Below, piece by piece: positions 458-15,377 of a DNA stretch of 43,675 nt. Numbering within the stretch: position 1 is the first letter of the stretch; every line of letters begins with the position of its first letter. The notes below the pieces were generated by a model. The model was not told the DNA's origin and ran no database searches. It saw only the letters and a list, made by a program, of their open reading frames with translations. The DNA is from Thermanaerothrix sp. (GTDB taxonomy: Bacteria > Synergistota > Synergistia > Synergistales > Synergistaceae): positions 1 through 43,675 of the forward strand of contig JAOACP010000016.1 of assembly GCA_026417795.1 (NCBI GenBank). Reading direction: 5' to 3'. The translations under genes and the position numbers were made by a program.

Positions 458-488
458 GGTGGACGGCGGCCTTAAGGCCACCGCCACC
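458..488 (-). promoter_or_regulatory. Trp leader pause hairpin (1:2 stem)
   Basis: On the minus strand, GGTGGCGGTGGCC (488-476) pairs with GGCCGCCGTCCACC (471-458) around a TTAA loop, with one bulged base and one wobble. The left arm carries the Trp codons of the leader peptide and the loop carries its stop codon. A ribosome stalled on the Trp codons would open this stem and free the right arm to pair with the terminator's 5' arm. This is the classic attenuation layout. Confidence 0.75.
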
Positions 489-543
489 AAAGGGAGTTAT
501 TGTCGATGAGAATCAGGTTAAGAGATCTGCGCAACGTGATCAT
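472..543 (-). CDS. trpL: trp operon leader peptide
   Basis: A 23-codon ORF (ATG at 543, TAA at 474-472) ends in DNNSLWWRWP, with three Trp codons in the last five sense codons. In enterobacterial trpL the diagnostic feature is tandem Trp codons just before the terminator hairpins, and the same order is seen here. The ATG starts only six bases after the -10 box, so the transcript would begin at or next to it. The peptide may therefore be translated from a leaderless mRNA, because no Shine-Dalgarno site is possible. No in-frame downstream start with a good ribosome site was seen. The role is to sense charged tRNA-Trp; the peptide itself probably has no other job. Confidence 0.85.
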   Translation of the reverse strand: MITLRRSLNLILIDNNSLWWRWP

Positions 544-549
544 GGGTCG

Positions 550-578
550 ATGATATGCCCCCCTTGGCGTCGTGTCAA
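550..578 (-). promoter_or_regulatory. trp promoter
   Basis: Minus-strand TTGACA (578-573), a 17-base spacer and TATCAT (555-550) form a near-consensus housekeeping promoter. It lies 11 bases beyond the end of the YbjN-like gene and drives the trp leader. The predicted start site falls at about position 543, the A of the leader-peptide ATG. Confidence 0.85.
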
Positions 579-1195: not shown

Positions 1196-2071
1196 TTAAG
1201 GGTTGCCTTGTATTATGCCGGTGATGTTCATGCTTATGTCCATGGCGGCGACCGAGTGGGTGAGGGAGCCTACGGAGATCACGTCCACCCCCGCCATGGC
1301 GGCCTTAAGGGCCCTCTCCGCGGTCATGTTCCCCGACGCTTCGATGACGGCCCTGCCCTTGGCGAGCTTCACCGCCTCTGCCATGTCCTCGGGGGTCATG
1401 TTGTCCAGCATGATGATGTCCGCCTTGGCCCTTAGGGCCTCCTCCACCTGGGAAAGGGTCTTGACCTCCACCTCTATGGTCATGGTGTGGGGTATCCGTT
1501 CCCTTGCCATCCTCACGGCGTTCTCGATCCCCCCCGCCAGGGCTATGTGGTTGTCCTTCAGCATCACCCCGTCGGACAGGGAGAACCGGTGGTTCCGCCC
1601 TCCGCCGATCAGCACCGCCGCCTTGTCAAGGCTCCTTAGGCCCGGGGCGGTCTTGCGGGTGTCCGTCACCCTGACGGGGAATCCCGAAAGGGCCTCCACG
1701 AAGCGCCTTACCGCGGTGGCTATGCCGCTCATCCGCTGGAGCAGGTTGAGGGCGGTCCTCTCGGCGGATAGCATGGCCCCCCCATGTCCTACGACCTCCA
1801 TCAGGTCCGTGCCGGGGTTCACGGCGTCCCCGTCGTTCACGAGGAAGCGGATCTTAACGCCCTCGTCCAGGGTTGAGAAGACCCTGGCGGCCACCTCAAG
1901 GCCCGCCACCACCCCCTGGGCCTTGGCGGTGAGAAGCGCCCTTGCGGACAGCGGGCCCGTGATCACGCAGGCGGTGCTTATGTCCCCGTTGGGCATGTCC
2001 TCCATTAGGGCCCGCCGGATTATACGGTCGACTTCAAACCAGTTGTAATGCGGCTTCAAGGTTTTTATCAC
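1196..2071 (-). CDS. nadC: Nicotinate-nucleotide pyrophosphorylase (quinolinate phosphoribosyltransferase)
   Basis: A 291-residue cytoplasmic enzyme that turns quinolinate and PRPP into nicotinate mononucleotide, CO2 and PPi, the third step of de novo NAD synthesis. Family signatures are seen in order: ERTALNLLQRMSGIAT near 105-120, DTRKTAPGLRSLDKAAV near 139-155, GGGRNHRFSLSDGVMLKDNH, then IEVEVKTLSQVEEAL, IMLDNMTPEDM and the C-terminal VDVISVGSLTHS. The Arg, Lys and His residues that bind quinolinate sit in the DTRKTAPG and GGRNHR motifs. The length is typical. It starts 7 bases after the nadB stop, so it is the last gene of nadA-nadB-nadC. Confidence 0.97.
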   Translation of the reverse strand: MIKTLKPHYNWFEVDRIIRRALMEDMPNGDISTACVITGPLSARALLTAKAQGVVAGLEVAARVFSTLDEGVKIRFLVNDGDAVNPGTDLMEVVGHGGAMLSAERTALNLLQRMSGIATAVRRFVEALSGFPVRVTDTRKTAPGLRSLDKAAVLIGGGRNHRFSLSDGVMLKDNHIALAGGIENAVRMARERIPHTMTIEVEVKTLSQVEEALRAKADIIMLDNMTPEDMAEAVKLAKGRAVIEASGNMTAERALKAAMAGVDVISVGSLTHSVAAMDISMNITGIIQGNP

Positions 2072-2078
2072 TTATCCA

Positions 2079-3605
2079 TCACCCCTCCATCCAGTGGCTT
2101 CCAAGGGACTTGGGCCTGCTTAAGGCTCCCTCCACCACCGAAAGGGCCACCTGGATCATGTTCACCACCTCGAAGTGGTCCGTTGAGGACAGCTCCGACC
2201 CCATGGCGGAGCTCAGCATCCCCTCCAGCTCCTTGCGGGCTTGGGTAAGCCCTTGGGCGGTGCGTATCACGAAGGCCCCTTCGGTCATGATGCGCCGTAT
2301 ACGCTCCATCGCCTCCTTGGGGTCCCACGGGAAGTCCTTGCCCTGGCAGGCGGCCGCCTTGCCGATGTAGCGGGGAAGGAGGCCCGGCCTTGGGGTGTTG
2401 GGTATCACCTCGGCTATTCGTTTGGCGAACACCAGGGCCTCAAGGAGCGAGTTGCTGGCCAGGCGGTTTGCCCCGTGGACGCCGGTCCTGGCGGCCTCTC
2501 CGCAGGCGTAGAGGCCTTCCACGGAGGTCCTGCCCCATAGGTCCGTGGATATGCCCCCCATGAGGTAGTGGGCCACGGGACGCACCGGTATCCAGTCCCT
2601 CGTCATGTCCACGCCCTCTTCGAGGCATCGGCGGTAGATGTTGGGGAAGCGGGCCTTTATGAATTCAGCCCCCAGGTGGGTGACGTCCAGGTAAACGAAG
2701 GGGGAGCGGTGTTTCATCATCTGCCTTGTCACCGCCCGGGCCACTATGTCCCTGGGCGCCAGGTCCTTAAGGGGGTGTTCGTCCCTCATGAAGGGCTCCC
2801 CCTTTGGGGATCGCAGTATGCCCCCTTCCCCCCTCACCGCCTCGGATATGAGGAAGCTTTGCTGGGATGAGGGGGAGTAGAGGCCCGTTGGGTGGAACTG
2901 GACGAACTCCATGTCCTCCACAAGGGCGCCGGCCCTCATGGCCATGGCTATGCCGTCCCCGGAGGAGTAGCGCATGTTGGTGGTGCGCTCGTAGAGCCTG
3001 CCTATGCCGCCGGTGGCCACCACCACGTGCCTTGCGAAGAGGCACCCGGCATTTCCCCCCAGCAGTACCGCCACCCCGGCGCACCCCCACTGGTCGGTGA
3101 TTATGTCCACCGCGAAGGCGTTGCCGAAGAAGGTGAGGTTCTCCCGGCCCTCCGCGGCCTTGGCCAGGGCCCGCACGATCTCAGCGCCGGTGGAGTCCTT
3201 GGCGTGGAGGATCCGGTTTCTTGAGTGCCCCCCTTCCCGGGTGAGCTTCAGGGAGCCGTCGGGGGCCCGGTCGAACTGGACCCCCAAAGCCACGAGATCC
3301 TGGGCTATCCGGGAGCTCTCCCGAATCATGAGACGCACCGCCTCAGGGTCGTTGTGGCCGCACCCGGCCCTTAGGGTGTCCTGCACGTGGGACTCCTCGT
3401 CCTCTGGGCCCTGGCATATGGCGATGCCCCCCTGGGCTAAGCCGCTGTTGGTGTCCTTCGGCAGGTCGCTCATGACCACCGCGGTCTTCAGGGAGGAAGG
3501 CAGGTTCAGGGCGGCGAACAGACCCCCCACGCCGGCGCCTATGACGATGACGTCGAAGCGGTTGCGGTCCGTGGGTTCCCCCTCGAAGGGGGAGAGGTAT
3601 CTCAC
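2079..3605 (-). CDS. nadB: L-aspartate oxidase
   Basis: A 508-residue flavoprotein that oxidises L-aspartate to iminoaspartate, which NadA condenses with dihydroxyacetone phosphate. It has an N-terminal FAD site (VIGAGVGGLFAALNL, about 21-35) and the family block SGLAQGGIAICQGPEDEESH. Further blocks are TREGGHSRNRILHAKD, HPTGLYSPSSQQSFL and the C-terminal flavin motif YACGEAARTGVHGANRLASN. In anaerobes fumarate usually replaces oxygen as the acceptor; that is family knowledge. The start is a GTG one base after the nadA stop, which suggests translational coupling. The length is normal, with no missing motif noted. Confidence 0.96.
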   Translation of the reverse strand: MRYLSPFEGEPTDRNRFDVIVIGAGVGGLFAALNLPSSLKTAVVMSDLPKDTNSGLAQGGIAICQGPEDEESHVQDTLRAGCGHNDPEAVRLMIRESSRIAQDLVALGVQFDRAPDGSLKLTREGGHSRNRILHAKDSTGAEIVRALAKAAEGRENLTFFGNAFAVDIITDQWGCAGVAVLLGGNAGCLFARHVVVATGGIGRLYERTTNMRYSSGDGIAMAMRAGALVEDMEFVQFHPTGLYSPSSQQSFLISEAVRGEGGILRSPKGEPFMRDEHPLKDLAPRDIVARAVTRQMMKHRSPFVYLDVTHLGAEFIKARFPNIYRRCLEEGVDMTRDWIPVRPVAHYLMGGISTDLWGRTSVEGLYACGEAARTGVHGANRLASNSLLEALVFAKRIAEVIPNTPRPGLLPRYIGKAAACQGKDFPWDPKEAMERIRRIMTEGAFVIRTAQGLTQARKELEGMLSSAMGSELSSTDHFEVVNMIQVALSVVEGALSRPKSLGSHWMEG

Positions 3606-3606
3606 G

Positions 3607-4518
3607 TCATACCACCTCCAGCATCCGCTCCAGCGAGGCCCTGGCCCGGTCTATGGTGTCCTGGGGCAGGATTATCTCCTGGGTCTCCTCCTTGAGGGAA
3701 CGGAGTATGGAGGAAAGGGTGGTGCGCTTCATGTTGGGGCACACCGGGGCGGGGGAGAGGGTGTGGAAGGTCTTGTGGGGGCAGCGTTTTTTAAGCCCGT
3801 GCAGCATCCCCTCCTCGGTGCCCACGATGAACTCCATGGCGTCGGAGGAGGCGGCGAAGTCAAGCATCTGGGATGTGCTTCCCACGAAGTGGGCCATCTG
3901 CACCACCTCTTCGGGGCACTCCGGGTGGGCCATGAACAGCGCGGAAGGGTGCTCCGAAAGGGCCGCCTCCACCTGCTCCCGGGTCATGCGCTCATGGGTG
4001 GGGCAGAAGCCCTCCCAGGGGATTATCCGCACCTCCGGCACCGCTTTTTGCACGTACCGGGCCAGGTTTCGGTCCGGGGCGAATATGACCTCTCTTGCGT
4101 TGAGGGAGCGCACCACCTTGGAGGCGTTGGAGGAGGTGCAGCATACGTGGCACTCCCCCTTGACCTCCGCGGAGGTGTTGACGTAACAGACCACCGGCAC
4201 GCCGGGGTGTTTCTCCTTGAGGCGCCGCAGGTCCTCTGGCGCCACCATGTCCGCCATGGGGCATCCCGCCGCAGGTTCCGGCAGGAGCACCTTTTTGTTG
4301 GGGGAGAGGATCTTGGCGCTCTCCGCCATGAACCTTACGCCGCAGAAGACGATGATCCGGTGGTCCGTTCTGGCGGCCGCCCGGCTCAGCTGAAAGGAAT
4401 CCCCCACCAGATCCGCCACGTCCTGCACCTGTGGGATCTGATAGTTGTGGGCCAGGATTACAGCCCCCTTCGCCTCCTTGAGGCGAAGGATTTCGGACCT
4501 TACTTCGTTGAGATCCAT
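3607..4518 (-). CDS. nadA: Quinolinate synthase A
   Basis: A 303-residue [4Fe-4S] enzyme that makes quinolinate from iminoaspartate and dihydroxyacetone phosphate. Three cysteines match the known cluster ligands in position and context: Cys86 (AAGCPMAD), Cys172 (EGFCPTHE) and Cys260 (APVCPNMK). Other motifs are ILAHNYQIPQVQDVADLVGDS near the N-terminus and CYVNTSAEVKGECHVCCTSSN. The ATG at 4518 is chosen because AAGGAG and GGAGGAA sites precede it and the protein then has the usual length. A longer reading frame to 4845 overlaps the promoter region and the divergent gene's leader and looks spurious. It is the first gene of the nad operon. Confidence 0.96.
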   Translation of the reverse strand: MDLNEVRSEILRLKEAKGAVILAHNYQIPQVQDVADLVGDSFQLSRAAARTDHRIIVFCGVRFMAESAKILSPNKKVLLPEPAAGCPMADMVAPEDLRRLKEKHPGVPVVCYVNTSAEVKGECHVCCTSSNASKVVRSLNAREVIFAPDRNLARYVQKAVPEVRIIPWEGFCPTHERMTREQVEAALSEHPSALFMAHPECPEEVVQMAHFVGSTSQMLDFAASSDAMEFIVGTEEGMLHGLKKRCPHKTFHTLSPAPVCPNMKRTTLSSILRSLKEETQEIILPQDTIDRARASLERMLEVV

Positions 4519-4597
4519 TTCCTCCGGTCTCCTTTTGGATTTTTGAGTTTGAGGCTTTTCCCCCCGCCGCCGCGGTTTCAGCTGCGAGGAGCTTGTG

Positions 4598-4612
4598 ATT
4601 TGCATTACAAAT
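4598..4612 (-). promoter_or_regulatory. Inverted repeat in the nadA leader, candidate operator
   Basis: ATTTG-CATTA-CAAAT is an inverted repeat with 5-base arms and a 5-base centre. It lies between the predicted nadA promoter and the nadA start. Position and symmetry suit a repressor site. NAD-pathway repressors such as NiaR or NrtR use comparable AT-rich palindromes, but I cannot assign the regulator from this one site. Confidence 0.4.
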
Positions 4613-4638
4613 GCTAAAAAAAGGCCCATTTTTGCTAC

Positions 4639-4666
4639 ATAATAGCACACCCGCCGGGATTGTCGG
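4639..4666 (-). promoter_or_regulatory. nadA promoter
   Basis: Minus-strand CCGACA (4666-4661), a 16-base spacer and TATTAT (4644-4639) preceded by TGC, giving an extended -10. The start site would be near 4632, leaving a leader of about 115 bases that contains an inverted repeat and a T-rich tract. No second gene lies between it and nadA. Confidence 0.6.
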
Positions 4667-4691
4667 ATACCCCAGGGTGCCCCGGGTGGGA

Positions 4692-4719
4692 TTGACATAT
4701 TTGAGAAACGGAGTAGAGT
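4692..4719 (+). promoter_or_regulatory. Promoter of the iron-containing alcohol dehydrogenase gene
   Basis: Plus-strand TTGACA (4692-4697), a 16-base spacer and TAGAGT (4714-4719). The -35 is perfect and the -10 matches at four of six positions. It faces away from nadA. The predicted leader of about 60 bases contains a tiny ORF (ATG at 4751, TAA at 4763) preceded by AAAGGA. Confidence 0.55.
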
Positions 4720-4789
4720 ATGGCCCGAAGAGAGAGTGAAAAAAGGAACAATGCTTACTATATAAACCAAAAGTTTGGGGGTGTCCGAG

Positions 4790-6013
4790 TTGTGGGAGAA
4801 GAACAACTCCATATATGACGTGAAGGAGATAAGGACCAGGACCACCTGTTACCTGGGCGTGGGGGCCATAGATAAGGTGGACCCCATAATGGAGAGTCTT
4901 TCGTCCATGGGGCACCGGAAGGTGCTGGTGGTGTCCGGCAGGTCCTCCTACAGGACCTGTTGGGGGAAGGTGCTCAAGGCCTTTGAGAAGCACGGGATGA
5001 CCTACGTGCACTACGACCGCATAACCCCCAACCCCACCGTGGACTCGGTGGACGAGGCGGCCCGGATGGCCAGGGAGTTCGGGGCCACCGCGGTGGTGGC
5101 CATAGGTGGAGGGAGCCCCATAGACTCCGCCAAGAGCGCCGCCATACTGATGGAGTACAAGGACAGGACCGCTAGGGACCTGTACGAGCTCAAGTTCACC
5201 CCGCTGAAGGCGGCGCCGGTGGTGGCCATAAACCTCACCCACGGCACCGGCACCGAGGTGGACCGCTTCGCGGTGGTGAGCATTCCGGAGAAGGAGTACA
5301 AGCCCGCCATCGCCTACGACTGCATATATCCCCTGTTCGCCATCGACGACCCGTCCCTCATGACCGGCCTTCCGGAGGACCAGACCCGGTACGTGTCCAT
5401 CGACGCCCTAAACCACGTGATAGAGGCCTGCACCACCGTGGCGGCGAGCCCTTACTCCATCCTCCTGGCCAAGGAGACCGTGCGGCTGGTGGCGGAGTAC
5501 CTGCCCAAGGCTCTTGAGGACCCTAAGGACTTGGAGGCTCGCTACTACCTGCTTTACGCCTCCATGATAGCCGGCGTGGCCTTCGACAACGGGCTTCTGC
5601 ACTACACCCACGCCCTTGAGCATCCCCTGTCGGCGGTGAAGCCGGAGCTTCCCCACGGGCTTGGGCTTGCCATGATAGTGCCCGGGGTGGTGAAGAACAT
5701 CTACCCCGTAAGGGCCCAGGTGTTGGCGGAGGTGCTCGCCCCCATAGTGCCGGGCCTTGAGGGCGACCCAAGCGAGGCCGTGAAGGCCGCGGAGGGGCTG
5801 GAGGAGTGGCTCTTCTCCGTGGGCGTGACCCACAAACTCTCGGACCAGGGATTCGGGGAGGAGCACGTGTCCAAGCTGGTCCACCTGGCCAAGACCACCC
5901 CGTCCCTTGATACCCTGCTGAGCCTTGCGCCGGTGAAGGCCACGGACCAGGTGATCGAGGACATCTACCGGTGCTCCTTGAGCCCCTTAAGGTCCTCCTC
6001 TGTCTTAAGGTAG
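4790..6013 (+). CDS. Iron-containing alcohol dehydrogenase
   Basis: About 407 residues, type III Fe-ADH fold. It has an NAD(P)-binding N-terminal domain with the GGGSPIDSAKSAAIL loop (about 95-110) and HGTGTEVDRFAV. A helical metal domain follows: SIDALNHVIEA gives the first Asp and His ligands, and THALEHPLSAVKPELPHGLG the last two His ligands. Such enzymes interconvert aldehydes or ketones and alcohols; the substrate cannot be read from sequence, though butanol-dehydrogenase-like members fit best. The start is uncertain: TTG 4775, GTG 4781 and TTG 4790 are all in frame. TTG 4790 is chosen because GGGGGTG ends six bases before it. It is a single-gene unit, divergent from nadA, closed by the hairpin at 6064-6098. 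Confidence 0.88.
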   Translation: MWEKNNSIYDVKEIRTRTTCYLGVGAIDKVDPIMESLSSMGHRKVLVVSGRSSYRTCWGKVLKAFEKHGMTYVHYDRITPNPTVDSVDEAARMAREFGATAVVAIGGGSPIDSAKSAAILMEYKDRTARDLYELKFTPLKAAPVVAINLTHGTGTEVDRFAVVSIPEKEYKPAIAYDCIYPLFAIDDPSLMTGLPEDQTRYVSIDALNHVIEACTTVAASPYSILLAKETVRLVAEYLPKALEDPKDLEARYYLLYASMIAGVAFDNGLLHYTHALEHPLSAVKPELPHGLGLAMIVPGVVKNIYPVRAQVLAEVLAPIVPGLEGDPSEAVKAAEGLEEWLFSVGVTHKLSDQGFGEEHVSKLVHLAKTTPSLDTLLSLAPVKATDQVIEDIYRCSLSPLRSSSVLR

Positions 6014-15106: not shown

Positions 15107-15245
15107 CGAAGATCACCCCTTCAAGACGGATTTGCCGCCTTGCTTCGCCGGGGAACCCTTTTTAAGAAGCCTGAACGCGCCGCTGCGAGCAGGAAAGAGG
15201 GAAGAGGCCTTGGGGCTTTCGCCCCCTTGGGTATGTAAGGATCAT

Positions 15246-15337
15246 CCTTCGCTCCCTACGCCGGCATTACCCGGATCAGGTTCTTGGGGTCGAGGGCCCA
15301 TGCCCTCCTCTCAGCCCCTTGGGGCTCCCCCGGAAAG
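15246..15337 (-). ncRNA. TPP riboswitch (THI element)
   Basis: The minus strand contains the conserved THI core: GGGGCTGAGAGGAGGGC, then a variable GGGCCCTC arm, then CGACCCCAAGAACCTGATCC and GGGTAATGCCGGCGTAGGGA. CTGAGA, GACCC, GAACCTGATC and the TAATGCC...GCGTAGGGA parts are the pyrimidine- and pyrophosphate-binding elements. It lies 140 bases upstream of thiD. Between them a GGGGC-GAAA-GCCCC hairpin (15211-15225) is followed by a pyrimidine-rich stretch but no clean T-run. Whether control is by termination or by ribosome-site masking is unresolved. Confidence 0.96.
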
Positions 15338-15377
15338 CTTTTATGAAAGGCATCAGCCTTTGGCTGGCTTAAGTAAT

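Follow-up and report, generated by a model that had tools for sequence, protein, structure and literature searches.

A probable leaderless tryptophan attenuator with tandem terminators upstream of an orphan trpB gene in the Synergistota

How might a translating ribosome control transcription of a tryptophan gene when the leader peptide that it would read appears to leave no room for a ribosome-binding site? The question is raised by one end of a 43,675-nucleotide contig of Thermanaerothrix sp. (JAOACP010000016.1; the window hereafter denotes this whole stretch, as analysed). A first-pass annotation of this DNA had described, with no strand given, a promoter (TTGACA-17-TATCAT), a 23-codon ORF ending in LWWRWP, a hairpin that holds the Trp codons and the stop codon, and a 14-bp terminator, all preceding trpB. 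Every one of these elements is present, and they lie on the minus strand, as do all window features given below.

The promoter consists of a -35 box, TTGACA (573-578), and a -10 box, TATCAT (550-555), separated by a spacer of 17 nucleotides. It matches the consensus at 11 of 12 positions and, scored with an E. coli-like matrix, is the sole site of its kind in positions 1-1300 of the window, where 0.3 would be expected. Only six bases, CGACCC, separate the -10 box from the leader ATG at 543, and the expected transcription start, approximately 7 nucleotides downstream of the -10 box, would fall at or adjoining this same position. The apparently leaderless leader ORF (MITLRRSLNLILIDNNSLWWRWP; 472-543) comprises 23 codons, and its Trp codons and stop codon are contained in hairpin 1:2 (458-488), the putative anti-antiterminator, of which segment 2 spans approximately 458-471. 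A small stem-loop (434-455) separates this hairpin from terminator T1 (400-432), a 14-bp pairing of segments 3 and 4 with a TTTTTT (U6) tail, and segment 3 has segment 2 as an alternative partner, creating antiterminator 2:3. Between T1 and trpB lies a second strong terminator, T2 (segments 5:6; 330-370), which has a U-rich tail and had escaped the first-pass annotation. Segment 5 of T2 (approximately 353-365) is complementary to a stretch of segment 4 (403-415) over 13 contiguous pairs, G-U pairs included, an arrangement that we propose as a further antiterminator, 4:5. The trpB gene itself, a second and orphan copy, starts at 279 and is preceded by a Shine-Dalgarno (SD) sequence; its 5' part occupies positions 1-279, with the remainder on another contig of the host genome (G000:C47). 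As a whole, the leader RNA folds better than its shuffled versions (z = -6.6).

The surroundings of the attenuator region can be described briefly. The gene upstream (590-1138) ends approximately 12 nucleotides before the -35 box, and the end of the same gene is found upstream in the relative G002. Three adjacent ORFs at 1196-4845 resemble nadC, nadB and nadA, as judged by their translations, and a TPP riboswitch at 15236-15341 (77.9 bits) is the sole Rfam family found in the window.

A search of the sequences upstream of trpB in the phylum yielded 51 Trp leaders. In these, a terminator follows a hairpin whose 5' arm carries the Trp codons, and the Trp run, the stop codon, the hairpins and the downstream trpB are kept; Trp codons and hairpins thus persist in the relatives examined, a comparison that the first-pass annotation had called for. 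A second terminator, in tandem with the first, is present in 46 of the 51, the five leaders that lack it (G005, G008, G011, G154 and G155) belonging to three genera. The capacity to form antiterminator 2:3 was compared with a control in which segments were swapped between species, and here the own pairing (-22.2 kcal/mol) is stronger than the permuted pairing (-17.4 +/- 0.5 kcal/mol), with none of 5000 permutations reaching the own value, in statistics that ignore phylogeny. When the nascent chain is folded with the stalled ribosome masked, using rough ribosome footprints, 2:3 is formed before segment 4 in all leaders but one, the lone exception being L036, whose ORF reads beyond the usual stop. 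For the window sequence, stalled and released states are not clearly told apart by the folding model at its third step. At equilibrium, the completed T1 and T2 outcompete 2:3 and 4:5, and antitermination must therefore be kinetic. The locus combines, then, a leader ORF with Trp codons, the cognate trpB downstream, intrinsic terminators, and a computed antiterminator that excludes the first of them. Comparison across the orthologous leaders supports the ribosome-mediated Trp attenuation that the first-pass annotation had suggested, and we regard it as likely that the region is a Trp transcription attenuator of this type, with a leaderless leader, that controls the orphan trpB.

The presence of T2 complicates any simple version of this scheme, as transcription that passes an opened T1 would still be stopped at T2, and a backup terminator without a means of release would block trpB. 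One solution is a relay, whereby formation of 2:3 releases segment 4 to pair with segment 5, and both terminators are opened. Across the leaders, the 3' arm of T1 with its U-tract pairs with the 5' side of T2 more strongly in its own combination than in permuted ones (-16.2 versus -13.4 +/- 0.4; 0 of 5000, again with no correction for phylogeny), and the longest own helix, with loops included, is likewise longer (8.6 versus 7.65 permuted; 0 of 5000). The competing explanation, in which T2 is a mere back-up and the 4:5 complementarity a by-product of two similar G+C-rich terminators, draws on the mirror control 3:6, where the own pairing also exceeds the permuted (-14.0 versus -12.9 +/- 0.4; 7 of 5000). 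In 3:6, however, the longest own helix is scarcely distinct from the permuted (7.3 versus 7.1; 751 of 5000). Composition shuffles give z = -2.0 for 4:5 versus -0.9 for 3:6, with nearly equal values in the separate trpE leaders, and the 4:5 value is accordingly close to -2 in two separate leader families. The advantage of 4:5 over 3:6 is only suggestive when the two are compared in pairs (p = 0.07 in the trpB set and 0.15 in the trpE set), and in the window T1 and T2 are near-copies, with 4:5 and 3:6 equally strong, all of which the by-product explanation would accommodate. It would not account for two trpE leaders, G025 (11 bp) and G183 (GGCCTTGA), in which the 4:5 match extends into the loop of T2, where likeness between the stems offers no explanation, nor for how the gene would be expressed past an unreleased T2. 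We consider the back-up explanation a serious possibility that falls somewhat short of even chances, and we lean, by a narrow preference, towards the relay, in which 2:3 and then 4:5 would open both terminators. In the window, the nascent chain folded to a point ending in segment 5 contains the 13-bp helix 403-415/353-365. Direct pairing of segments 2 and 5 was also considered as an opener of T2, and was rejected when the permutation test revealed no preference for own sequences.

How the leader ORF is started is best judged from the distance between the -10 box and the start codon, which is bimodal among the 51 trpB leaders. In 20 of them 6-7 nucleotides separate the -10 box from the start, and these leaders, of 18-23 codons, all begin with ATG (20/20) and share TTGAC in the -35 box (20/20), as in the window. 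With the usual spacing between -10 box and start, the A of the ATG would be the first transcribed base, and an SD sequence would have no space downstream of the expected start. In the other 31, the likeliest start lies at least 23 nucleotides after the -10 box, mostly 25-44, and the median SD energy is -8.4 kcal/mol, the distances being less sure for L008/L034, L018 and L035, where promoter calls are weak. The first-pass annotation had noted the ATG six bases after the -10 box and the resulting lack of a ribosome-binding site; the short gap holds in the 20 orthologues, whereas the remaining 31 mostly combine a longer gap with an SD sequence. The leader of G021 (L019) has two in-frame ATGs, one 6 nucleotides after the -10 box and the other, with an SD, 33 nucleotides after it, and may represent an intermediate between the leaderless and the SD-led form. 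When mapped on the TrpB tree, the start mode requires 7-8 changes, at least 4-5 of these being forced by well-supported branches; the lower count of 7 instead of 8 is obtained when G021 is treated as ambiguous and placed among the 31. The leaderless geometry is rare elsewhere: of 24 genes with strong promoters in 400 kb of the relative G002, one shows it, and among the 22 trpE leaders of the phylum none does.

The same attenuator could, in principle, be carried on a longer transcript that starts upstream, by read-through from the 590-1138 gene or from another promoter, with the leader translated by coupling or by weak unaided initiation. No terminator separates the upstream gene, ending at 590, from the promoter, and some longer transcripts may for this reason read through; moreover, a G-rich stretch (AAGGGGGG) is found approximately 15-22 nucleotides before the ATG, inside the promoter spacer. 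However, this stretch is too distant to serve as an SD, and transcripts from the window promoter would not include it; the near-consensus promoter and the exact 6-7 nucleotides to the ATG are kept in 20 orthologues from several families with diverged flanks, and those relatives with long 5' untranslated regions do carry good SDs. A non-leaderless transcript is consequently an unlikely alternative. That the window leader is leaderless is probable and well supported, with the case resting on comparison rather than on the single sequence; transcription would then start at the ATG, initiation would presumably be of the 70S type, and attenuation may depend on this route, as the first-pass annotation had suggested.

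T-boxes and TRAP control trp genes in other organisms, and a protein- or tRNA-sensing leader of this kind might replace ribosome-mediated control. No Rfam family reaches its gathering score in the attenuator region, and the conserved part is a short ORF with Trp codons in a hairpin, making such a leader very improbable. Weak matches at 390-495 (RNAI and others) are below the gathering score and were judged to be chance. The covariance model of the enterobacterial Trp_leader family leaves the window unmatched even at E values up to 10; the window attenuator works like the members of that family but sits outside it. Finally, short Trp-rich ORFs are common in G+C-rich DNA, but the idea that one has arisen by accident in the terminator region of the upstream gene is refuted by the 51 conserved loci, and its probability is negligible.

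The proposed mechanism for the ribosome-mediated, leaderless attenuator is as follows. RNA polymerase would start at or adjoining the A of the leader ATG, and the leader ORF would be translated as a leaderless mRNA. When charged tRNA-Trp is ample, the ribosome would reach the stop codon, with segment 2 covered or kept in hairpin 1:2, allowing T1 (3:4) and then T2 (5:6) to form. When Trp is short, the ribosome would stall at the Trp codons, whereby segment 2 pairs with segment 3 and T1 is blocked; the freed segment 4 could then pair with segment 5, T2 would also fail, and trpB would be transcribed. The response to Trp and the kinetic opening of both terminators are predictions of this scheme.

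The genomic setting bears on what the attenuator is for. The host genome encodes two trpB genes, with the window copy outside the trp operon, and the full trpE-G-D-C-F-B-A operon is present on a separate contig (G000:C17). This operon is preceded by a Trp attenuator of its own, with a leader (MLFLRLQNWWWRTP) that has a strong SD and a 38-nucleotide gap between the -10 box and the ATG; neither this second attenuator nor the status of the window trpB as an extra copy was part of the first-pass annotation, and its remark that use before trpB rather than trpE is uncommon is misleading, because the host trpE operon is itself provided with an attenuator. The SD-led operon leader (L002:150-380, on G000:C17) has two tandem terminators, and complementarity of AAGGCCCC and GGGGCCTT joins the 3' arm of its T1 with the 5' side of its T2.

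Among the genomes examined, Trp leaders precede trpE in 22, and several (G000, G002, G006, G029, G055 and G076) possess both a leaderless trpB attenuator and an SD-led trpE attenuator in one cell. The orphan trpB stands alone in relatives, and 45 orphan-type proteins create one clade in the TrpB tree (support 100/99), apart from the operon-type TrpBs. The window TrpB, whose gene is divided between contigs, was for that reason left out of the tree, but its first 92 residues share 77% identity with the G002 protein, which is included. In the case of L063 (G070), a Trp leader precedes a trpB whose product groups with the operon-type proteins outside the orphan clade, which suggests a different combination of leader with gene at this locus.

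In eight complete or near-complete genomes (G001, G008, G022, G063, G064, G065, G069 and G140), trpA was not found, yet the orphan trpB is retained together with its leader in all eight; in G001, there is in addition no match to TrpE at 1e-60. These absences fit indole salvage, and the orphan TrpB probably makes Trp from scavenged indole.

How does this attenuator compare with known systems? The enterobacterial trpL-trpE attenuator, with an SD-led leader and one terminator before trpE, shares with the window the order of leader, 1:2, 2:3, 3:4 and U-tract, but differs from it in start mode, in the number of terminators and in the gene controlled. The six segments of the enterobacterial his attenuator, pairing as AB/CD/EF or alternatively as BC and DE (PMC10989985), follow the same logic as that proposed for 2:3 plus 4:5 in the window; there, however, only EF is a terminator, whereas 3:4 and 5:6 are both terminator-like with U-tracts in the window. 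The first-pass annotation had set the window apart from known trpL systems on the grounds that these start with a Shine-Dalgarno site, a contrast that fails because leaderless trpL genes are known from two organisms. In Sinorhizobium meliloti, rnTrpL starts directly with the trpL ATG (PMC7298713), so that, as apparently in the window, the transcript opens with a leaderless Trp leader ORF, followed by an attenuator; that attenuator precedes trpE(G) and has a 14-amino-acid leader, in contrast to the orphan trpB, 23-amino-acid leader, tandem terminators and mode-switching orthologues of the window. In Streptomyces lividans, an actinobacterium where leaderless mRNAs make up 17% of transcripts, trpL1 and trpL2 encode Trp leader peptides accompanied by hairpins and are leaderless, as the window leader appears to be, but are located before trpE and trpS (PMC8079986) rather than before an orphan trpB. 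Candidate Trp attenuators have also been predicted for trpB1EDGC and trpB2A of C. diphtheriae (PMC1262725), which resemble the window in preceding a unit that begins with trpB; these are actinobacterial operons, whereas the window trpB is a monocistronic orphan.

While leaderless trpL as such is already known, and attenuators before trpB-first operons have already been predicted, the part of the literature covered yielded no account of a Trp attenuator from this phylum. As far as these searches go, the following features are new: the recurrent exchange of start mode inside one orthologous attenuator, the presence in a single genome of two Trp attenuators that differ in start mode, and the arrangement of terminators in tandem. 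Taken together as a phylum-wide two-stage attenuator, with tandem terminators opened by relay, repeated switching between leaderless and SD-led starts and an SD-led trpE attenuator alongside, they make up a picture for which we see the prospects as evenly balanced.

The leaderless and SD-led forms of one orthologous attenuator in related genomes represent a natural experiment, in which one can ask if a particular route of initiation is required for attenuation, and if starting without a leader ties one gene to the overall condition of the ribosome pool. Should the relay prove true, a stalled ribosome would open two intrinsic terminators serially, and the off state would be tighter for an unchanged sensor. 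For the Synergistota, these leaders are suggestive of a TrpB for indole salvage that is under the control of Trp across a phylum.
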